From contig JAPLXU010000014.1 in the NCBI GenBank assembly GCA_026395915.1, positions 45,596-80,600 on the forward strand: DNA of 35,005 nt. The letters run 5' to 3'. The notes beneath the pieces were generated by a model. That model saw only the letters and a program-made list of their open reading frames with translations. It ran no database searches and was not told where the DNA came from. Shown in pieces: positions 17 to 24,896 of the stretch; the first letter of the stretch is position 1, and each line of letters starts with the position of its first letter. The position numbers and the translations under genes were made by a program. The stretch comes from Candidatus Nomurabacteria bacterium. GTDB lineage: Bacteria; Patescibacteriota; Minisyncoccia; Phycocordibacterales; UBA9973.

Positions 17-1351
17 ATGAAAAATCGAGTATATATAAAAGATTTGAAGGATAATGTGGGGAAAGAAGTCACTATTGCCGGATGGGTGGATGTAAGGCGC
101 GATCAGGGGAAAATGGTTTTTTTTGACATGCGCGATATGACTGGCAAGACGCAGTGCGTGGCGTTGCCGAGCCGAATAGAGGTGATAGAAAAAGGAAAAG
201 AAATCAGACCGGAATGGGTTTTGAAAATTACTGGCATAGTCAATAAACGCCCGGCGAAAAATGTGAAAGCTGGAGTCTTAAACGGCGACGTGGAGCTAGA
301 AGTGACTATGATTGAAGTTTTATCTAAAGCAATGGACTTGCCTTTCGAGTTAAATGAATCTGTGAATCTCGATACTCATCTCGATAATCTTCCATACACA
401 GTGCGTTCAGAAAGATCAAAAGATATTTTTACTATGCAATCAACTATTCTTGAAGCATATCGTTCTTCATTGAGATCTCAAGGATTTACGGAGTTTATGT
501 CTCCTGGGATTGTGGGTGGAGATGCTGAAGGTGGAGCAGCTGTTTTTAAAGTAGATTATTTTAAAGATCACAAAGCTTACTTGGCAACAAGTCCCCAATT
601 TTATAAACAAATAATGGTGGGGGCATTTGAACGTGCATGTACTATTGCCAAAGTTTTTCGCGCGGAAAAGAGCGCAACGACTAGACATTTGAGCGAAATA
701 ACTCAGATGGATTTTGAAATGGGTTTTATCGAAAACGAGCGAGATGTTATGAAAGTTCTAGAAAATACGATTCGTAATACAGTAAAGAAGGTTGGTGAAT
801 TACATGAGGATATATTTATTCGCTTTAATACAACTGTTCCAGAAATTCCGACCGAAATTCCAGTATTTACTTTGGCTGAAGCGCAAGCCCTTATCGCCAA
901 AGAATTTAATCGCAAAATTGAAGATATAAATGATATGTCTCCTGAAGATGAGCGTCAGATTTGCGAATATGCAAAGAAAAATCTTAAATCTGATTTTGTG
1001 TTCATCACGAGATTTCCAACAAAGAAGCGAGCTTTTTATACCTTTGAGGAACCAAGCGAAGCGCCGTATTCGCGCGGTTTTGATTTATTGTTTAGAGGTT
1101 TGGAAATAAATAGCGGCTCTCAACGAATTCATAATTATGATATTCTTGTTGCAAAAATAAAAGAAAGAGGAATGGATCCGAATAAGTTTACTTATTATCT
1201 ACAAACATTCAAGTGCGGTATGCCACCTCATGGGGGATCATCTACTGGTTTGGAACGTTTTACTGCGCGAATGCTTGAACTTCAAAACGTCAAAGAAGCG
1301 ACAGCTTTTCCTCGAGATATGACTCGCATAGACACTAGACTTTCAGAATAA
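17..1351 (+). CDS. aspS: Aspartyl-tRNA synthetase, archaeal/eukaryal-type (class IIb)
   Basis: Charges tRNA with aspartate in the cytoplasm. The N-terminal OB-fold anticodon-binding domain spans about residues 1-105 (GWVDVRRDQGKMVFFDMRD). The class II catalytic core follows: SPQFYKQ near 192, motif 2 FRAE..TTRHLSE at 214-227 and motif 3 GGSSTGLERF at 406-415, ending in FPRDMTRID. At 444 aa it is much shorter than the usual ~590-aa bacterial AspRS and has no room for the GAD insertion domain, so it is the archaeal-type form. The SPQFYKQ and FPRD motifs favour AspRS over AsnRS. Archaeal-type enzymes are often non-discriminating (also charging tRNA-Asn for amidation), but that cannot be decided here. 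A TAAAAT box at 2-7 ends 9 nt before the ATG. Confidence 0.88.
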   Translation: MKNRVYIKDLKDNVGKEVTIAGWVDVRRDQGKMVFFDMRDMTGKTQCVALPSRIEVIEKGKEIRPEWVLKITGIVNKRPAKNVKAGVLNGDVELEVTMIEVLSKAMDLPFELNESVNLDTHLDNLPYTVRSERSKDIFTMQSTILEAYRSSLRSQGFTEFMSPGIVGGDAEGGAAVFKVDYFKDHKAYLATSPQFYKQIMVGAFERACTIAKVFRAEKSATTRHLSEITQMDFEMGFIENERDVMKVLENTIRNTVKKVGELHEDIFIRFNTTVPEIPTEIPVFTLAEAQALIAKEFNRKIEDINDMSPEDERQICEYAKKNLKSDFVFITRFPTKKRAFYTFEEPSEAPYSRGFDLLFRGLEINSGSQRIHNYDILVAKIKERGMDPNKFTYYLQTFKCGMPPHGGSSTGLERFTARMLELQNVKEATAFPRDMTRIDTRLSE

Positions 1352-1357
1352 ATTTTC

Positions 1358-2599
1358 TTACTCGCTAAATGATTGAGACAAGTCTTTTTTTATCTGTTCG
1401 CTTAATTTTTCTACGCTCTTGAATTTTTTTGGAAAACGCAGATATCTTTCTGTGACGACCTCAATGTCTTTGCCATAAAGATTCCCGTTAAATTCCAAAA
1501 CGTGAACCTCGAGACAGTCTCTGTTCGTGAGAGAATTGATTCCGTGATACATTAGCCCGGAATAAAATTCTCCGTTCAAATCAACCTTGCATGAATAGAG
1601 TCCTTTTGGAAGATCTTTTGCCAGATTGATATCAAGATTTGCTGTTCTTGCGCCGACTTTTTCCCCGTTATTATTTCCAACTAAAACTTTTCCGTTGATA
1701 GTGTACGTCTTGTTCAAACGAGTAGCTAAAGTTACCGCAATAAATAAGAGAACGGCGCCGGCGATTTGAGTTGTTGAAAGTACGTTGTGGTTGAATACAT
1801 AATCAAAAATAACGGCAGAAAACGGCCATGCCAGTTCACATAAAGTCGCGAGTGAAGCAGGAATTTTTTTTAAACCGTAATAATAGAGATACATGGCGAC
1901 AGCTCCGGAAGTGAAAACTATAATCGCCAAAGTTCTCCAGACATCGATGCTGACCGATGGCAATGTCGAGAAATATTTTATGGCAGGAATCATCAGAATA
2001 ATTACGGTGAAGCCGAATCGAAGCGCAGCGAGAAGTCCATAATTTATATTTTTAAGCGAATATTTTCCAAACGTGGTTGACGAGCCCCAAGAAAAAGCTG
2101 CCAATAATGAAAAAACTGCCATCATGACTGTAGCGCTACCGAAATTTATCGAGCTTGGGTCTTTGAACGTAACGAAGTATCCGCCAACTAGCGCCAAAAG
2201 CGCGTAGAGATAAAACTTGGCAGGAAAGCGTTCTCTCAAAATAATCGCTGACAATAAAATGGCGAAAATTGGTTGGAACTTTTGCAAAAGGACAACCACC
2301 GAGACATCCACGAAGCCGGTCAAAAATAAAGCCTTTGTGAAAAAAATAGTGCCGAGCGCGCCACCGAACAAAGCCACCCAAAAGATAGCTGACCATTGTT
2401 TTTTTGTGATCTTTTTCAATTCTGATTTATAGATAAACAAAAACGGCAGAAGAATTATGAGCCCCAGACTGTGCTCCAAGAATACTACAAAGGTGGGCGC
2501 GACAGATGACAAGCGTGGACGCAGAAAAATCCCATCTAAGCTCCAAAGCAATGCCGCTACTATGACTGCTCCCGCACCAATAAAAATTTTGTTTTTCAT
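1358..2599 (-). CDS. EamA/DMT-family transporter fused to a riboflavin kinase domain
   Basis: A 413-aa fusion. Residues 1-293 are about ten hydrophobic helices in two halves, typical of an EamA drug/metabolite transporter (opening GAGAVIVAALLWSLDGIFLR; second half from about 155). Residues 298-411 match the riboflavin kinase domain normally found at the C-terminus of RibF: GKVLVGNNNGEKVGARTANL (PTAN motif with Pro replaced by Arg, Thr319 and Asn321 kept), PKGLYSCKV, then LEVHVLEFNGNLYGKDI carrying the expected catalytic Glu364, then RFPKKFKSVEKLSEQIKKD. The FMN adenylyltransferase half of RibF is absent. Some DMT transporters (RibN) carry riboflavin, so uptake coupled to phosphorylation to FMN is a reasonable inference; the substrate is not shown. 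The last helix runs straight into the kinase domain. It lies 45 nt downstream of prs on the same strand and may be read through. Confidence 0.85.
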   Translation of the reverse strand: MKNKIFIGAGAVIVAALLWSLDGIFLRPRLSSVAPTFVVFLEHSLGLIILLPFLFIYKSELKKITKKQWSAIFWVALFGGALGTIFFTKALFLTGFVDVSVVVLLQKFQPIFAILLSAIILRERFPAKFYLYALLALVGGYFVTFKDPSSINFGSATVMMAVFSLLAAFSWGSSTTFGKYSLKNINYGLLAALRFGFTVIILMIPAIKYFSTLPSVSIDVWRTLAIIVFTSGAVAMYLYYYGLKKIPASLATLCELAWPFSAVIFDYVFNHNVLSTTQIAGAVLLFIAVTLATRLNKTYTINGKVLVGNNNGEKVGARTANLDINLAKDLPKGLYSCKVDLNGEFYSGLMYHGINSLTNRDCLEVHVLEFNGNLYGKDIEVVTERYLRFPKKFKSVEKLSEQIKKDLSQSFSE

Positions 2600-3637: not shown

Positions 3638-4585
3638 TTACCAACTCTTGATGACTTTCGAGATTGGCATTTCGACTAAGTCTTCTGCTCCACTTGTGAG
3701 TAATGCAGGAATTAATGTGTTGAGCTCTTCTTTGAATATCACTGCCCCAACTGAGAAATAATTTCCACCGGAAAGTGGTGTGATCGTAGGAGTCTTGAGC
3801 GCGGGAAGTTGTTGTAGGAGTTTGTCTTTGTCTTGTGTTGTCACATTCATAACCAAGAACACTTGCTCACGCGCAGCCAATGTTCCCAGAAGAAGATGTT
3901 TTAGCGCAACAACAGACTTTTTCTTGGCATGATCTGATGTTTTGGTTCCGGAACGGCACCAGATTTCTTGATTCGTAATGAGGCAAGTATACGATTCAAG
4001 GAAGGTATGAATTGTTTTCAATCCATTTGCGACAAGACTCGCTCCTGTATCAGTGAGACACACGCCATACTTATAATCGCGTGGAATGTGCGCTTCCGTG
4101 CCTCCGTAAGAGAATTCAATTTTGACATCAATGTTGCGATCTCTGAAACTAGACTTGGTCAAAGATGGATACTCGCTCAGGATAGATGGATATTCATCCA
4201 GGATGGATGAACGTTCGACATCCTCAATTCTTTTTGCATGATTGGATTGAGAAGTAACCAATACCACTTTTGCCTTTCCAGAGGAGTTCCCGCGTCCGTA
4301 TGGTAATTCCGCAATCACACAATTATGTGCCGAACTTTCGAACTGACAGTCCAGTCCACAAATTCCTATGTCATATGTGCCGTTTTCAACCAAACGAGGA
4401 ATATGTTGCGGTCGCATGAAGGTGACCTCTGAGAAAAGCTGATCCTCAATGCGAGCATTATGCTTGCGAGGGTCTTTGAATATCCTGAGATTTGCCTGTT
4501 CAAACAGGCGCATTGTTCCTTCTTCCAGGCTACCGTTCGGCAGTGCAATTCTAAGTCCAACCGATTTTTTGTTTTGTTTTTTCAT
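3638..4585 (-). CDS. hisG: ATP phosphoribosyltransferase, long form
   Basis: Catalyses the first step of histidine synthesis, condensing ATP with PRPP. The 315-aa protein opens with LRIALPNGSLEEGTMRLFEQA. It then has RPQHIPRLVENGTYDIGICG, the PRPP-binding region GVCLTDTGASLVANGL, and a C-terminal ~75-aa regulatory (histidine-binding, long-form) domain containing TPTITPLSGGNYFSVGAVI. Residues around 129-142 carry a 7-aa tandem duplication (SILDEYP, SILSEYP) from a 21-bp DNA repeat. No other his gene lies in the window, so it is either a lone enzyme or the rest of the pathway is elsewhere. The upstream neighbour is a TrpR/YerC-type regulator; members of that family are linked to his gene control in Firmicutes. 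A weak promoter (TTGGCT, 18 bp, GATAGT) can be read about 20-50 nt upstream, which would give a short leader. Confidence 0.9.
   Translation of the reverse strand: MKKQNKKSVGLRIALPNGSLEEGTMRLFEQANLRIFKDPRKHNARIEDQLFSEVTFMRPQHIPRLVENGTYDIGICGLDCQFESSAHNCVIAELPYGRGNSSGKAKVVLVTSQSNHAKRIEDVERSSILDEYPSILSEYPSLTKSSFRDRNIDVKIEFSYGGTEAHIPRDYKYGVCLTDTGASLVANGLKTIHTFLESYTCLITNQEIWCRSGTKTSDHAKKKSVVALKHLLLGTLAAREQVFLVMNVTTQDKDKLLQQLPALKTPTITPLSGGNYFSVGAVIFKEELNTLIPALLTSGAEDLVEMPISKVIKSW
4163..4204 (-). repeat. 21-bp tandem duplication inside hisG
   Basis: Two adjacent 21-nt units (AGATGGATACTCGCTCAGGAT and a copy with four changes) keep the frame and encode SILDEYP-SILSEYP on the minus strand, in the region between the two halves of the HisG catalytic core. 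Confidence 0.7.
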
Positions 4586-13457: not shown

Positions 13458-14633
<1,176 letters not shown>

Positions 14634-21067: not shown

Positions 21068-21583
21068 ATGTCAAAACAATTAAAATTAAAAATAGTCACG
21101 CCGGAACGCCTTGTCTTGGAAGAAATGGTTGACCAAGTGACCTTACCGACCTCGGAAGGCGAGATAACTATTCTGCCGGAACATATTCCGCTCATTTCTG
21201 GTCTTGCGTCGGGAGACGTGGTTGCTGTTGTGAATGGCGAGCATGTGCCGATGGCTGTCGTGGGTGGATTTGTGGAAGTAAGACAAGGCGAAAACAAAAC
21301 TACCGAAGTGGCTATCTTGGCTGACTTTGCCGAAACTATTGGCGAGCTTACAGAAGAAAAAATAATTCAGGCCAAAGCTCGCGCGGAAGAATTAAAAAAG
21401 CAAATGCCTGCCCGCAATGCTACGCCCGCCAGAAACGCTGTATCTACTGCGGGCTGGCAAAACGTTGCAGGCGGGGAAAATAAGGATCATGTTGACTTTG
21501 AGCATTTTGAGGCCGAACTCGAACGCTCGCTCACTCGCGTAAAAATAGCCGACAAATGGCGAACGAGAAAGTATAGGAAATAA
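21068..21583 (+). CDS. atpC: F1Fo ATP synthase subunit epsilon
   Basis: A 171-aa F1 regulatory subunit. The N-terminal beta-sandwich is clear (LKIVTPERLVLEEMVDQVTL, then PTSEGEITILPEHIPLISGL) and the C-terminal helices are present (EEKIIQAKARAEELKKQ, then FEAELERSLTRVKIADKWRT). Between the helices, residues ~114-137 (PARNATPARNAVSTAGWQNV and AGG) are encoded by nested palindromic inserts, making the protein longer than the usual ~135 aa. rsmI follows after 2 nt. Confidence 0.93.
   Translation: MSKQLKLKIVTPERLVLEEMVDQVTLPTSEGEITILPEHIPLISGLASGDVVAVVNGEHVPMAVVGGFVEVRQGENKTTEVAILADFAETIGELTEEKIIQAKARAEELKKQMPARNATPARNAVSTAGWQNVAGGENKDHVDFEHFEAELERSLTRVKIADKWRTRKYRK
21407..21476. repeat. Nested palindromic elements inside atpC
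   Basis: The outer part has the ends of the 37-nt element (CCTGCCCGCAATGCT... and ...TTGCAGGCGGGG). Inside lies a second palindrome, GCCCGCCAG...CTGCGGGCTGGC. The frame stays open and the outer part is read in the same frame as in atpB and holB. Confidence 0.8.
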
Positions 21584-23079: not shown

Positions 23080-24093
23080 ATGGGTATTTTCACGAAAAAA
23101 CTAGGCATAGATTTGGGGACGGCAAATACTTTGGTGTTTCTGCCGGGCAAAGGAATAATTTTAAACGAACCTTCCGTGGTGGCTGTTTCCGAGCAAGATA
23201 ACAAAATTTTAGCTATCGGTTTTGAAGCCAAAGACATGATCGGCAAAACTCCGGAATCCATCATTACTTATTGCCCGATGAAAGACGGAGTGATCGCGGA
23301 CTATCGGGTGACGGAAGCTATGTTGCGTTATTTTATAAACAAAGCGATGGGGAAATTTAATTTCTTCAAGCCCGACGTGATGGTTTCGGTTCCGGCTGGA
23401 GTCACGAGCACGGAAAGGCGAGCTGTGATAGAAGCGGCTATTCGCGCCGGCGCAAAGAACGCTTATGTCGTGAAGGAGCCCATCTTGGCGGCTATTGGCG
23501 CTGGTATTCCGATTTATGAATCAAAAGGTCACATGGTGGTGGATATCGGCGGAGGCACGACGGACGTTGCAGTTATTTCGCTCGGCGGAATCGTGGCTTC
23601 CACATCCGTAAAATGCGCGGGAAATAAAATTGACCAGGCGATAGCTGATTACATCAAAAAAACCTTCAATCTTGCAATTGGCGACAGGACTGCCGAAGAA
23701 GTGAAAATAAAAATCGGCGCAGCTGTGCTTCTCGAAGAAGAACTTTCGGTAACGATCAAAGGCAGGGACTTCATCCAAGGCTTGCCGAGATCTGCGCGTG
23801 TGGGAACGAATGAAATAGTTCGCGCGATAGACGGAGAATTGAAACAAATAATAAAAGCGATCAAAGATGTCTTGCAAGAAACTCCGCCGGAACTCGCTTC
23901 GGACATCATAGATCAAGGCATCATAATGACCGGAGGGTCGTCACAATTGCGAAATTTCACAGATTTGGTTTACCGCAAGACAGGAGTGAAAGCGACTTTG
24001 GCAGAAGATCCGCTCTTTTGTGTAGCGAAAGGCACAGGCATAGCGCTGGAACATTTGGATGTGTACAAAAAGGCAGTTTTAAGCAAGAAATAA
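23080..24093 (+). CDS. mreB: Rod shape-determining protein MreB
   Basis: A 337-aa actin-like filament protein guiding wall growth on the inner membrane face. Phosphate-1 loop GIDLGTANTLVF (residues ~9-20), adenosine loop and connecting motifs VSVPAGVTSTERRAV, KEPILAAIGAG, VVDIGGGTTDVAVISLGG and MTGGSSQLRNF. Full length. A GTG at 23077 is also in frame, but promoter spacing supports the ATG at 23080. It overlaps holB by one base (TAATG). MreC, MreD and RodA are not in the window. Confidence 0.96.
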   Translation: MGIFTKKLGIDLGTANTLVFLPGKGIILNEPSVVAVSEQDNKILAIGFEAKDMIGKTPESIITYCPMKDGVIADYRVTEAMLRYFINKAMGKFNFFKPDVMVSVPAGVTSTERRAVIEAAIRAGAKNAYVVKEPILAAIGAGIPIYESKGHMVVDIGGGTTDVAVISLGGIVASTSVKCAGNKIDQAIADYIKKTFNLAIGDRTAEEVKIKIGAAVLLEEELSVTIKGRDFIQGLPRSARVGTNEIVRAIDGELKQIIKAIKDVLQETPPELASDIIDQGIIMTGGSSQLRNFTDLVYRKTGVKATLAEDPLFCVAKGTGIALEHLDVYKKAVLSKK

Positions 24094-24896
24094 TGAATAT
24101 TTCGAAGCATTTAGATAAAAATAATTTACATCATGCGTACTTGATAGAAGGGGATCGGAACGAAGTCGTGCCGGAGATTTTGAGTTTTTGCGAGAGTTTG
24201 GATATCAAGACTTCTGGTAATCCAGATTTTTGTCATATCGTGATCGATAATTTCAAAATTGACGAAGCGTTTGATTTGCGCGCGATGTCTTCTGATAAAG
24301 GATTTTCTTCATCAAAAAAAATATTTCTGATTTGCGTTAACAGTTTTTCTCTTGATGCGGAAAATGTTTTGTTGAAGATGTTTGAAGAGCCGATAGAAAA
24401 TACGCATTTTTTTCTTGTGGTTCCAGATGTTAATTCTCTTTTGAAAACTCTTGTTTCTAGATTTTATTTTATTTCTGCAAGGCAACCTGCCCGTAATGCT
24501 TCGCATAGCGATGCAGGCGGGGACATAGTTAGAGATACAGAAGATGCAGAAAAATTTATTGCTATGCCTTTACAAAAGAGGATTGATTTTTTGAAAGAAT
24601 TTCTGGCTGGACCGGAAGAAGAGGATGAGGAGGGAAATGAAATTGCTGTTTTAGATTCTACTCGTTCAAAAGCCTTGAAATTTCTAAACGCACTGGAAAT
24701 TGTACTACATAGCAAATTTGCAAAGAATTTCTCCGGCTTGACCCTTCCCGGAGTACCGGGTGGGACCCACACCGTTCAAAATCCTTTGCAAATTTGCTTG
24801 CAACATTTTTTCAAAGTTCGTAAGTTTCTCCGCATGCCTGGGTCTTCAGCAAAAACCTTGATGGAATCCGTGGCAATATTGATTCCAAATTTGTGA
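24093..24896 (+). CDS. holB: DNA polymerase III delta-prime-like subunit
   Basis: A 267-aa clamp-loader-type protein. Start LHHAYLIEGDRNEVVPEI corresponds to the HAYLF..G region of HolB without a Walker A loop; then DEAFDLRAMSSDKGFSSSKK, VNSFSLDAENVLLKMFEEPI and THFFLVVPDVNSLLKTLVSR follow the family pattern (NALLKxLEEP; SRC-like). The start overlaps the mreB stop. Two palindromic inserts stay in frame: residues 132-143 (PARNASHSDAGG) and about 207-235 (FAKNFSGLTLPGVPGGTHTV). The C-terminal RKFLRMPGSSAKTLMESVAI is a usual ending for these proteins. Confidence 0.82.
   Translation: MNISKHLDKNNLHHAYLIEGDRNEVVPEILSFCESLDIKTSGNPDFCHIVIDNFKIDEAFDLRAMSSDKGFSSSKKIFLICVNSFSLDAENVLLKMFEEPIENTHFFLVVPDVNSLLKTLVSRFYFISARQPARNASHSDAGGDIVRDTEDAEKFIAMPLQKRIDFLKEFLAGPEEEDEEGNEIAVLDSTRSKALKFLNALEIVLHSKFAKNFSGLTLPGVPGGTHTVQNPLQICLQHFFKVRKFLRMPGSSAKTLMESVAILIPNL
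24486..24522. repeat. 37-nt in-gene palindromic element, copy in holB
   Basis: Identical to the atpB copy at 35 of 37 positions (changes CGC to CGT and AGT to AGC, both silent) and read in the same frame as PARNASHSDAGG. It falls just after the conserved SRFYFISAR segment. Confidence 0.87.
24711..24798. repeat. GC-rich core in inverted arms, in frame inside holB
   Basis: The arms AGCAAATTTGCAAAGAATTT (24711-24730) and its complement at 24779-24798 match at 19 of 20 positions. The 48-nt core contains CCC-tt-CCCGG-agta-CCGGG-t-GGG. This is the same plan as the intergenic elements at 6851 and 14637, but inside a gene and without breaking the frame. Confidence 0.75.

Follow-up and report, generated by a model that had tools for sequence, protein, structure and literature searches.

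A transporter of the EamA family fused to riboflavin kinase in Candidatus Nomurabacteria, a probable riboflavin uptake-and-trap protein

The window, by which we mean the whole stretch of 35,005 nucleotides analysed, comes from contig JAPLXU010000014.1 of a Candidatus Nomurabacteria bacterium (GenBank assembly GCA_026395915.1). Near its start, an aspS-like gene converges with an open frame that joins an EamA (DMT) transporter to riboflavin kinase (RFK). The features of the locus, with the evidence for each in brackets, are:

17-1351, plus strand: aspS-like gene, convergent neighbour of the fusion (ORF call; conserved anchor in the genus)
1358-2599, minus strand: whole fusion gene, 413 residues, EamA (DMT) transporter plus riboflavin kinase (open frame, Pfam, AlphaFold2 model)
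1718-2599, minus strand: EamA transporter part, residues 1-294, ten transmembrane helices (Pfam, AlphaFold2 model, loop charges, structure comparison)
2168-2581, minus strand: first EamA repeat (profile match G000:C6:47763-48176)
1721-2119, minus strand: second EamA repeat (profile match G000:C6:47316-47714)
1361-1714, minus strand: riboflavin kinase domain, residues 296-413 (Pfam, solved-structure relatives, structure comparison)
1637-1645, minus strand: T319-A-N321, nucleotide/metal motif (T and N invariant in 13 fusions)
1508-1510, minus strand: E364, proposed catalytic base (invariant in 13 fusions; equivalent to E268, PMC2573891)

Farther into the window, a hisG-like gene (3638-4585) has prs on one side and a YerC/TrpR-like gene on the other, and no further histidine gene was recognised in its vicinity; at L033 and L113 a hisG-like gene likewise lies between YerC and the fusion. 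A GC-rich dispersed repeat of 36 bases (CCTGCCCGYAATGCTTCGCATAGYGATGCAGGCGGG) is present at 14284-14319 and 24486-24521, and also near murB (G000:C5:9793-9817). It is in frame within an atpB-like ORF and within the ORF at 24018-24896, adding 12 residues to each protein, and a related stretch is found in the ORF at 21068-21583. The genome holds ten copies of its 25-base core at up to three mismatches, and the reversed control none.

Pfam searches of the 413-residue protein identified two stretches of EamA (PF00892; E 2.2e-37) and, at residues 296-409, Flavokinase (PF01687; E 3e-25, 89.3 bits against a cut-off of 19.6). The latter match spans positions 2-119 of the 124-position profile, that is, the full domain. 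The FAD_syn domain (PF06574), which together with PF01687 makes up the bifunctional RibF, was absent from the fusion. Among the solved structures related in sequence to the C-terminal part are those of Thermotoga RibF and human riboflavin kinase. The fusion thus has the kinase domain at its C terminus, as RibF does, with the same fold and the same essential T, N and E residues, whereas the N-terminal FMN adenylyltransferase half of RibF is replaced by a ten-helix transporter. Because that half is missing, FAD synthesis must fall to another protein. The frames of most riboflavin kinases sampled in the phylum are too short to hold an FAD-synthetase half, so its absence is not special to the fusion. 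RFK is joined in the phylum to other partners as well, namely 5-formyltetrahydrofolate cyclo-ligase, riboflavin synthase, O-antigen ligase (Wzy_C) and NUDIX (L148:3997-4851, L149:4492-5373, L147:3763-4878, L155:3487-4473, L151:3232-4872 and L154:3973-4872).

The AlphaFold2 model of the fusion, for which a 61-sequence alignment served as input, had a pLDDT of 93.6 and a pTM of 0.88. It contains ten transmembrane helices, the last at residues 276-294, and the RFK barrel starts at residue 300. When the model was compared with solved structures, residues 2-297 matched DMT transporters with Z of 20-30 over 250-291 residues, and residues 293-413 matched the riboflavin kinases 1q9s (Z 15.7, rmsd 1.9 over 121 residues) and 5a8a (Z 15.3, rmsd 2.0 over 117 residues). 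These results bear out the initial annotation, which had described an EamA transporter running straight into a complete riboflavin kinase without the FAD-synthetase half and had proposed comparing the C-terminal domain with RibF; both the Pfam score and the match to 1q9s confirm that this domain is a riboflavin kinase. The lysine and arginine residues of the EamA part number 12 in the predicted inside loops versus 2 in the outside loops. This placement of the positive residues argues for an N-in/C-in topology, and the kinase domain is accordingly predicted by the model to be cytoplasmic.

The source genome (0.81 Mb, 95.7% complete) has the window fusion as its sole RFK. Neither lumazine synthase (RibH) nor riboflavin synthase (RibE) was found in this approximately 96% complete genome; the search for riboflavin synthesis covered these two enzymes. 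A full RibF FAD_syn domain was likewise not found in the genome, which gave only a partial match, to a separate nucleotidyltransferase of 143 residues. The genome encodes MurB and a Pyr_redox_2 flavoprotein and therefore needs flavins. Judging from this gene content, the source bacterium is apparently unable to make vitamin B2. The loss of riboflavin synthesis genes had been anticipated in the initial annotation, and a separate full ribF alongside riboflavin biosynthesis, which was named there as speaking against the proposal, did not turn up. Besides the fusion, the genome encodes at least two other EamA proteins, each about 300 residues long. In the window and in 14 related loci, Rfam models matched tRNAs only, and no FMN riboswitch was found.

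Residues T319, N321 and E364 are invariant across all 13 distinct fusion sequences. The FAD synthetase (FADS) of Corynebacterium ammoniagenes requires their equivalents, T208, N210 and E268, for its kinase activity (PMC2573891). One departure from the usual pattern is that the proline of PTAN, the form seen in most RFKs, gives way to R or K in the main fusion clade (R in the window protein). One could take this as a sign that the RFK domain has lost catalysis and instead senses flavin or regulates the transporter. However, a fusion of independent origin (G396) retains the proline (FPTLN), the three residues named above do not vary, and the domain is the only RFK in a genome that contains flavoenzymes. 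We consider a dead kinase very improbable, and the domain is presumably active.

The two genes are separate in related genomes, as might be expected if the frame were a product of misassembly or of a frameshift that joined them. Recurrence already refutes this explanation, to which we give practically no credence. Our survey of Patescibacteria for the architecture, suggested in the initial annotation, yielded 13 distinct fusion sequences from separate assemblies. The main fusion recurs in independent assemblies of Nomurabacteria, Magasanikbacteria and other Patescibacteria at 62-87% identity, and a second one, that of G396, was found in a distant family. The fusions occupy two separate places in the RFK tree, and the EamA tree agrees. 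In addition, dN/dS was approximately 0.04-0.17 in both halves of the fusion, as estimated only where pS was unsaturated; these low values indicate that both halves are under purifying selection, and the protein is modelled as a single confident fold. These results demonstrate that the EamA-RFK fusion is real, is selected and was formed at least twice.

Within the genus, the position beside aspS is held by RFK-ribE-ribH(-ribA), by RFK-EamA or by the convergent EamA-RFK fusion, and these arrangements replace one another. In the RFK tree, the fused RFK clade falls outside the clade of the genus's own RFKs and is common to Magasanikbacteria, which suggests horizontal entry of the fusion into the genus. 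The fusion may then have taken over the aspS locus after its transfer.

We examined the pairing of EamA and RFK in relation to riboflavin synthesis in two samples. In the family sample of 99 genomes, RFK was present in 38. EamA was fused or immediately adjacent to RFK in 27/27 of the RFK-positive genomes lacking RibH, whereas it was directly adjacent in 0/11 of those with RibH, in two of which EamA follows ribH (Fisher 8e-10, shared ancestry being ignored). In the phylum sample, EamA lay beside RFK in 23/44 RibH-negative versus 1/56 (~2%) RibH-positive genomes (Fisher 1e-9, again ignoring shared ancestry), and the pairing spans 10 families; the adjacency was not found in the other 21/44 RibH-negative genomes. 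Either gene may come first in the pair, which draws on several lineages of RFK and of EamA; on the RFK tree, the EamA-adjacency label has to change many times. EamA is not strictly tied to the loss of synthesis, given that the phylum genome G224 has RibH plus an RFK-adjacent EamA and that EamA follows ribH in the biosynthesis operon of G067, G096 and G114. As a separate observation, 61/99 genomes of the family (f1) are without any RFK, some of them highly complete (e.g. G028, G054 and G073).

We infer that riboflavin is the substrate of the EamA part, with strong though indirect support, because EamA pairs nearly exclusively with RFK where riboflavin synthesis has been lost; for the same reason, import is favoured over export. 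One could envision, alternatively, that EamA carries an unrelated metabolite and that its link to the kinase arose by chance or serves to anchor the kinase at the membrane. The EamA family is diverse in its substrates, which we counted against the riboflavin assignment, and the closest unfused EamA relatives (approximately 45% identity in Marinimicrobia and 42% in Fusobacterium) do not lie beside recognisable flavin genes. The neighbours of such relatives in Marinimicrobia, Bacteroidota and Fusobacterium were considered as a clue to the substrate and rejected, as they comprise an MFS gene and unrelated genes, none recognisable as a flavin gene. Nevertheless, it is hard to account for two independent fusions, and for an adjacency that recurs with either gene first and across several lineages of EamA, unless the two proteins share a pathway, and adjacency is rare where RibH is present. 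We therefore regard an unrelated substrate as improbable.

A further scenario is that the EamA part exports a flavin, either FMN or riboflavin, with the kinase producing what is exported. Export is common among EamA/DMT proteins, and the top Foldseek match was 5i20 (YddG, an exporter); the position of EamA after ribH in the three biosynthesis operons would also fit. On the other hand, the RFK-adjacent EamA occurs almost only in genomes without RibH (27/27 in the family and 23/24 in the phylum), and such genomes have no surplus flavin to give away. Moreover, LicB, a DMT protein encoded in one operon with the kinase of its substrate, is an importer. Flavin export, too, seems to us a poor prospect.

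The LicB/LicA pair of Streptococcus pneumoniae consists of a DMT choline importer and a choline kinase from a single operon, so that the imported nutrient is phosphorylated in the cytoplasm (PMC4364537). The EamA part matched the LicB structure 7b0k with Z 24.9 and an rmsd of 3.6 over 250 residues. LicB and LicA differ from the fusion in being two separate proteins that handle another nutrient, and the kinase fold is unrelated. Another related system is RibN, also an EamA/DMT protein. RibN is a characterised bacterial riboflavin transporter (PMC4418817), and its function is the one proposed for the fusion, but it is without a kinase domain; furthermore, an FMN riboswitch is known from RibN genes (PMC4418817), as a frequent but not defining feature of such importers, and none was found at the fusion locus.

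Transporter and kinase have also been joined in a different way. In three genomes of the patescibacterial family f43, an ABC-transporter ATPase is fused to RFK (L150:3676-4854, L152:234-1517 and L153:3592-4863). These fusions adjoin an ABC permease, and an NMT1/THI5-type binding protein is also encoded at L150 and L152. According to the RFK tree, their origin is separate from that of the EamA-RFK fusions. Their make-up is like that of RibXY, an ABC-type riboflavin importer shown by complementation (PMC4418817) that differs in transporter class from the EamA part of the window fusion. Because the RibXY-type family includes transporters of other substrates, the ABC-ATPase-RFK fusions are a supportive and independent parallel to the EamA-RFK protein, not proof of its function.

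If the fusion yields FMN, then the question is which protein makes FAD. A candidate is encoded elsewhere in the source genome:

G000:C15, L077:5141-5572, minus strand: RibL-like nucleotidyltransferase, 143 residues (matches CTP_transf_like and, weakly, FAD_syn)

An HxGH motif is present in this protein, whose closest relative of solved structure is the archaeal protein 3glv (E 3e-22). It resembles RibL, the archaeal FAD synthase, in the motif and in the relation to 3glv, and it is a candidate located outside the fusion. Stand-alone FAD synthases of the nucleotidyltransferase superfamily have been described (PMC11423594). The genes for EamA, RFK and the nucleotidyltransferase stand side by side at L180, L185, L188 and L190; in family f65 the nucleotidyltransferase adjoins EamA-RFK in several genomes, and it is near RFK in other genomes. 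In the genus it is present in 22/23 genomes with RFK versus 3/9 without; elsewhere the association is looser. The idea that it strictly marks RFK holds for the genus but was rejected for other genera, where many RFK-negative genomes carry it. The FAD_syn matches in the family were rejected as well; each is weak and incomplete, and that of the source genome is this small nucleotidyltransferase. The 143-residue protein is likely a RibL-type FAD synthase.

We think it quite likely that the fusion is a riboflavin importer and an FMN-forming kinase in one protein. Riboflavin would enter through the ten-helix EamA part and would be phosphorylated with ATP by the cytoplasmic C-terminal RFK, giving FMN. 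Because FMN is charged, it should not exit by the same route; it would be retained inside, in an uptake-and-trap manner, and either used directly or made into FAD. The latter step would probably be carried out by the separate RibL-like nucleotidyltransferase, supplying MurB and the Pyr_redox_2 flavoprotein. A stricter form of coupling is that the protein is a group translocator, in which the kinase, tethered by a linker of approximately 5 residues where the EamA pore opens into the cytoplasm, is handed riboflavin by the transporter itself and releases only FMN, so that phosphorylation drives net uptake. We consider this form unlikely, if less so than the alternatives weighed above. Uptake followed by trapping remains our preferred reading, and EamA-RFK, whether fused or neighbouring, is very probably the vitamin B2 scavenging route of these bacteria.

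All the parts of the fusion come from known families, and the coupling of a DMT importer to a kinase is already known for two proteins, LicB and LicA. For a single EamA-RFK protein, no description was found in the literature searched, subscription journals being largely outside the search, in agreement with the view in the initial annotation that no protein of this form had been described. Nelson and Stegen (2015) reported of the Parcubacterial genomes in their study that these seemed to lack riboflavin synthesis, ribKL/ribF and a riboflavin transporter, and that the same bacteria kept the FAD-dependent MurB and TrxB (PMC4508563). EamA-RFK, often accompanied by the RibL-like nucleotidyltransferase, offers a testable flavin supply for many lineages, in which riboflavin would be imported and converted to FMN and then to FAD. 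The module would resolve the Parcubacterial flavin puzzle for many lineages, though not for the RFK-less genomes of the family. The fusion itself provides a single-protein transporter-kinase for the study of coupled uptake. Finally, EamA-RFK predicts a concrete vitamin requirement, which could help to cultivate these uncultured bacteria.
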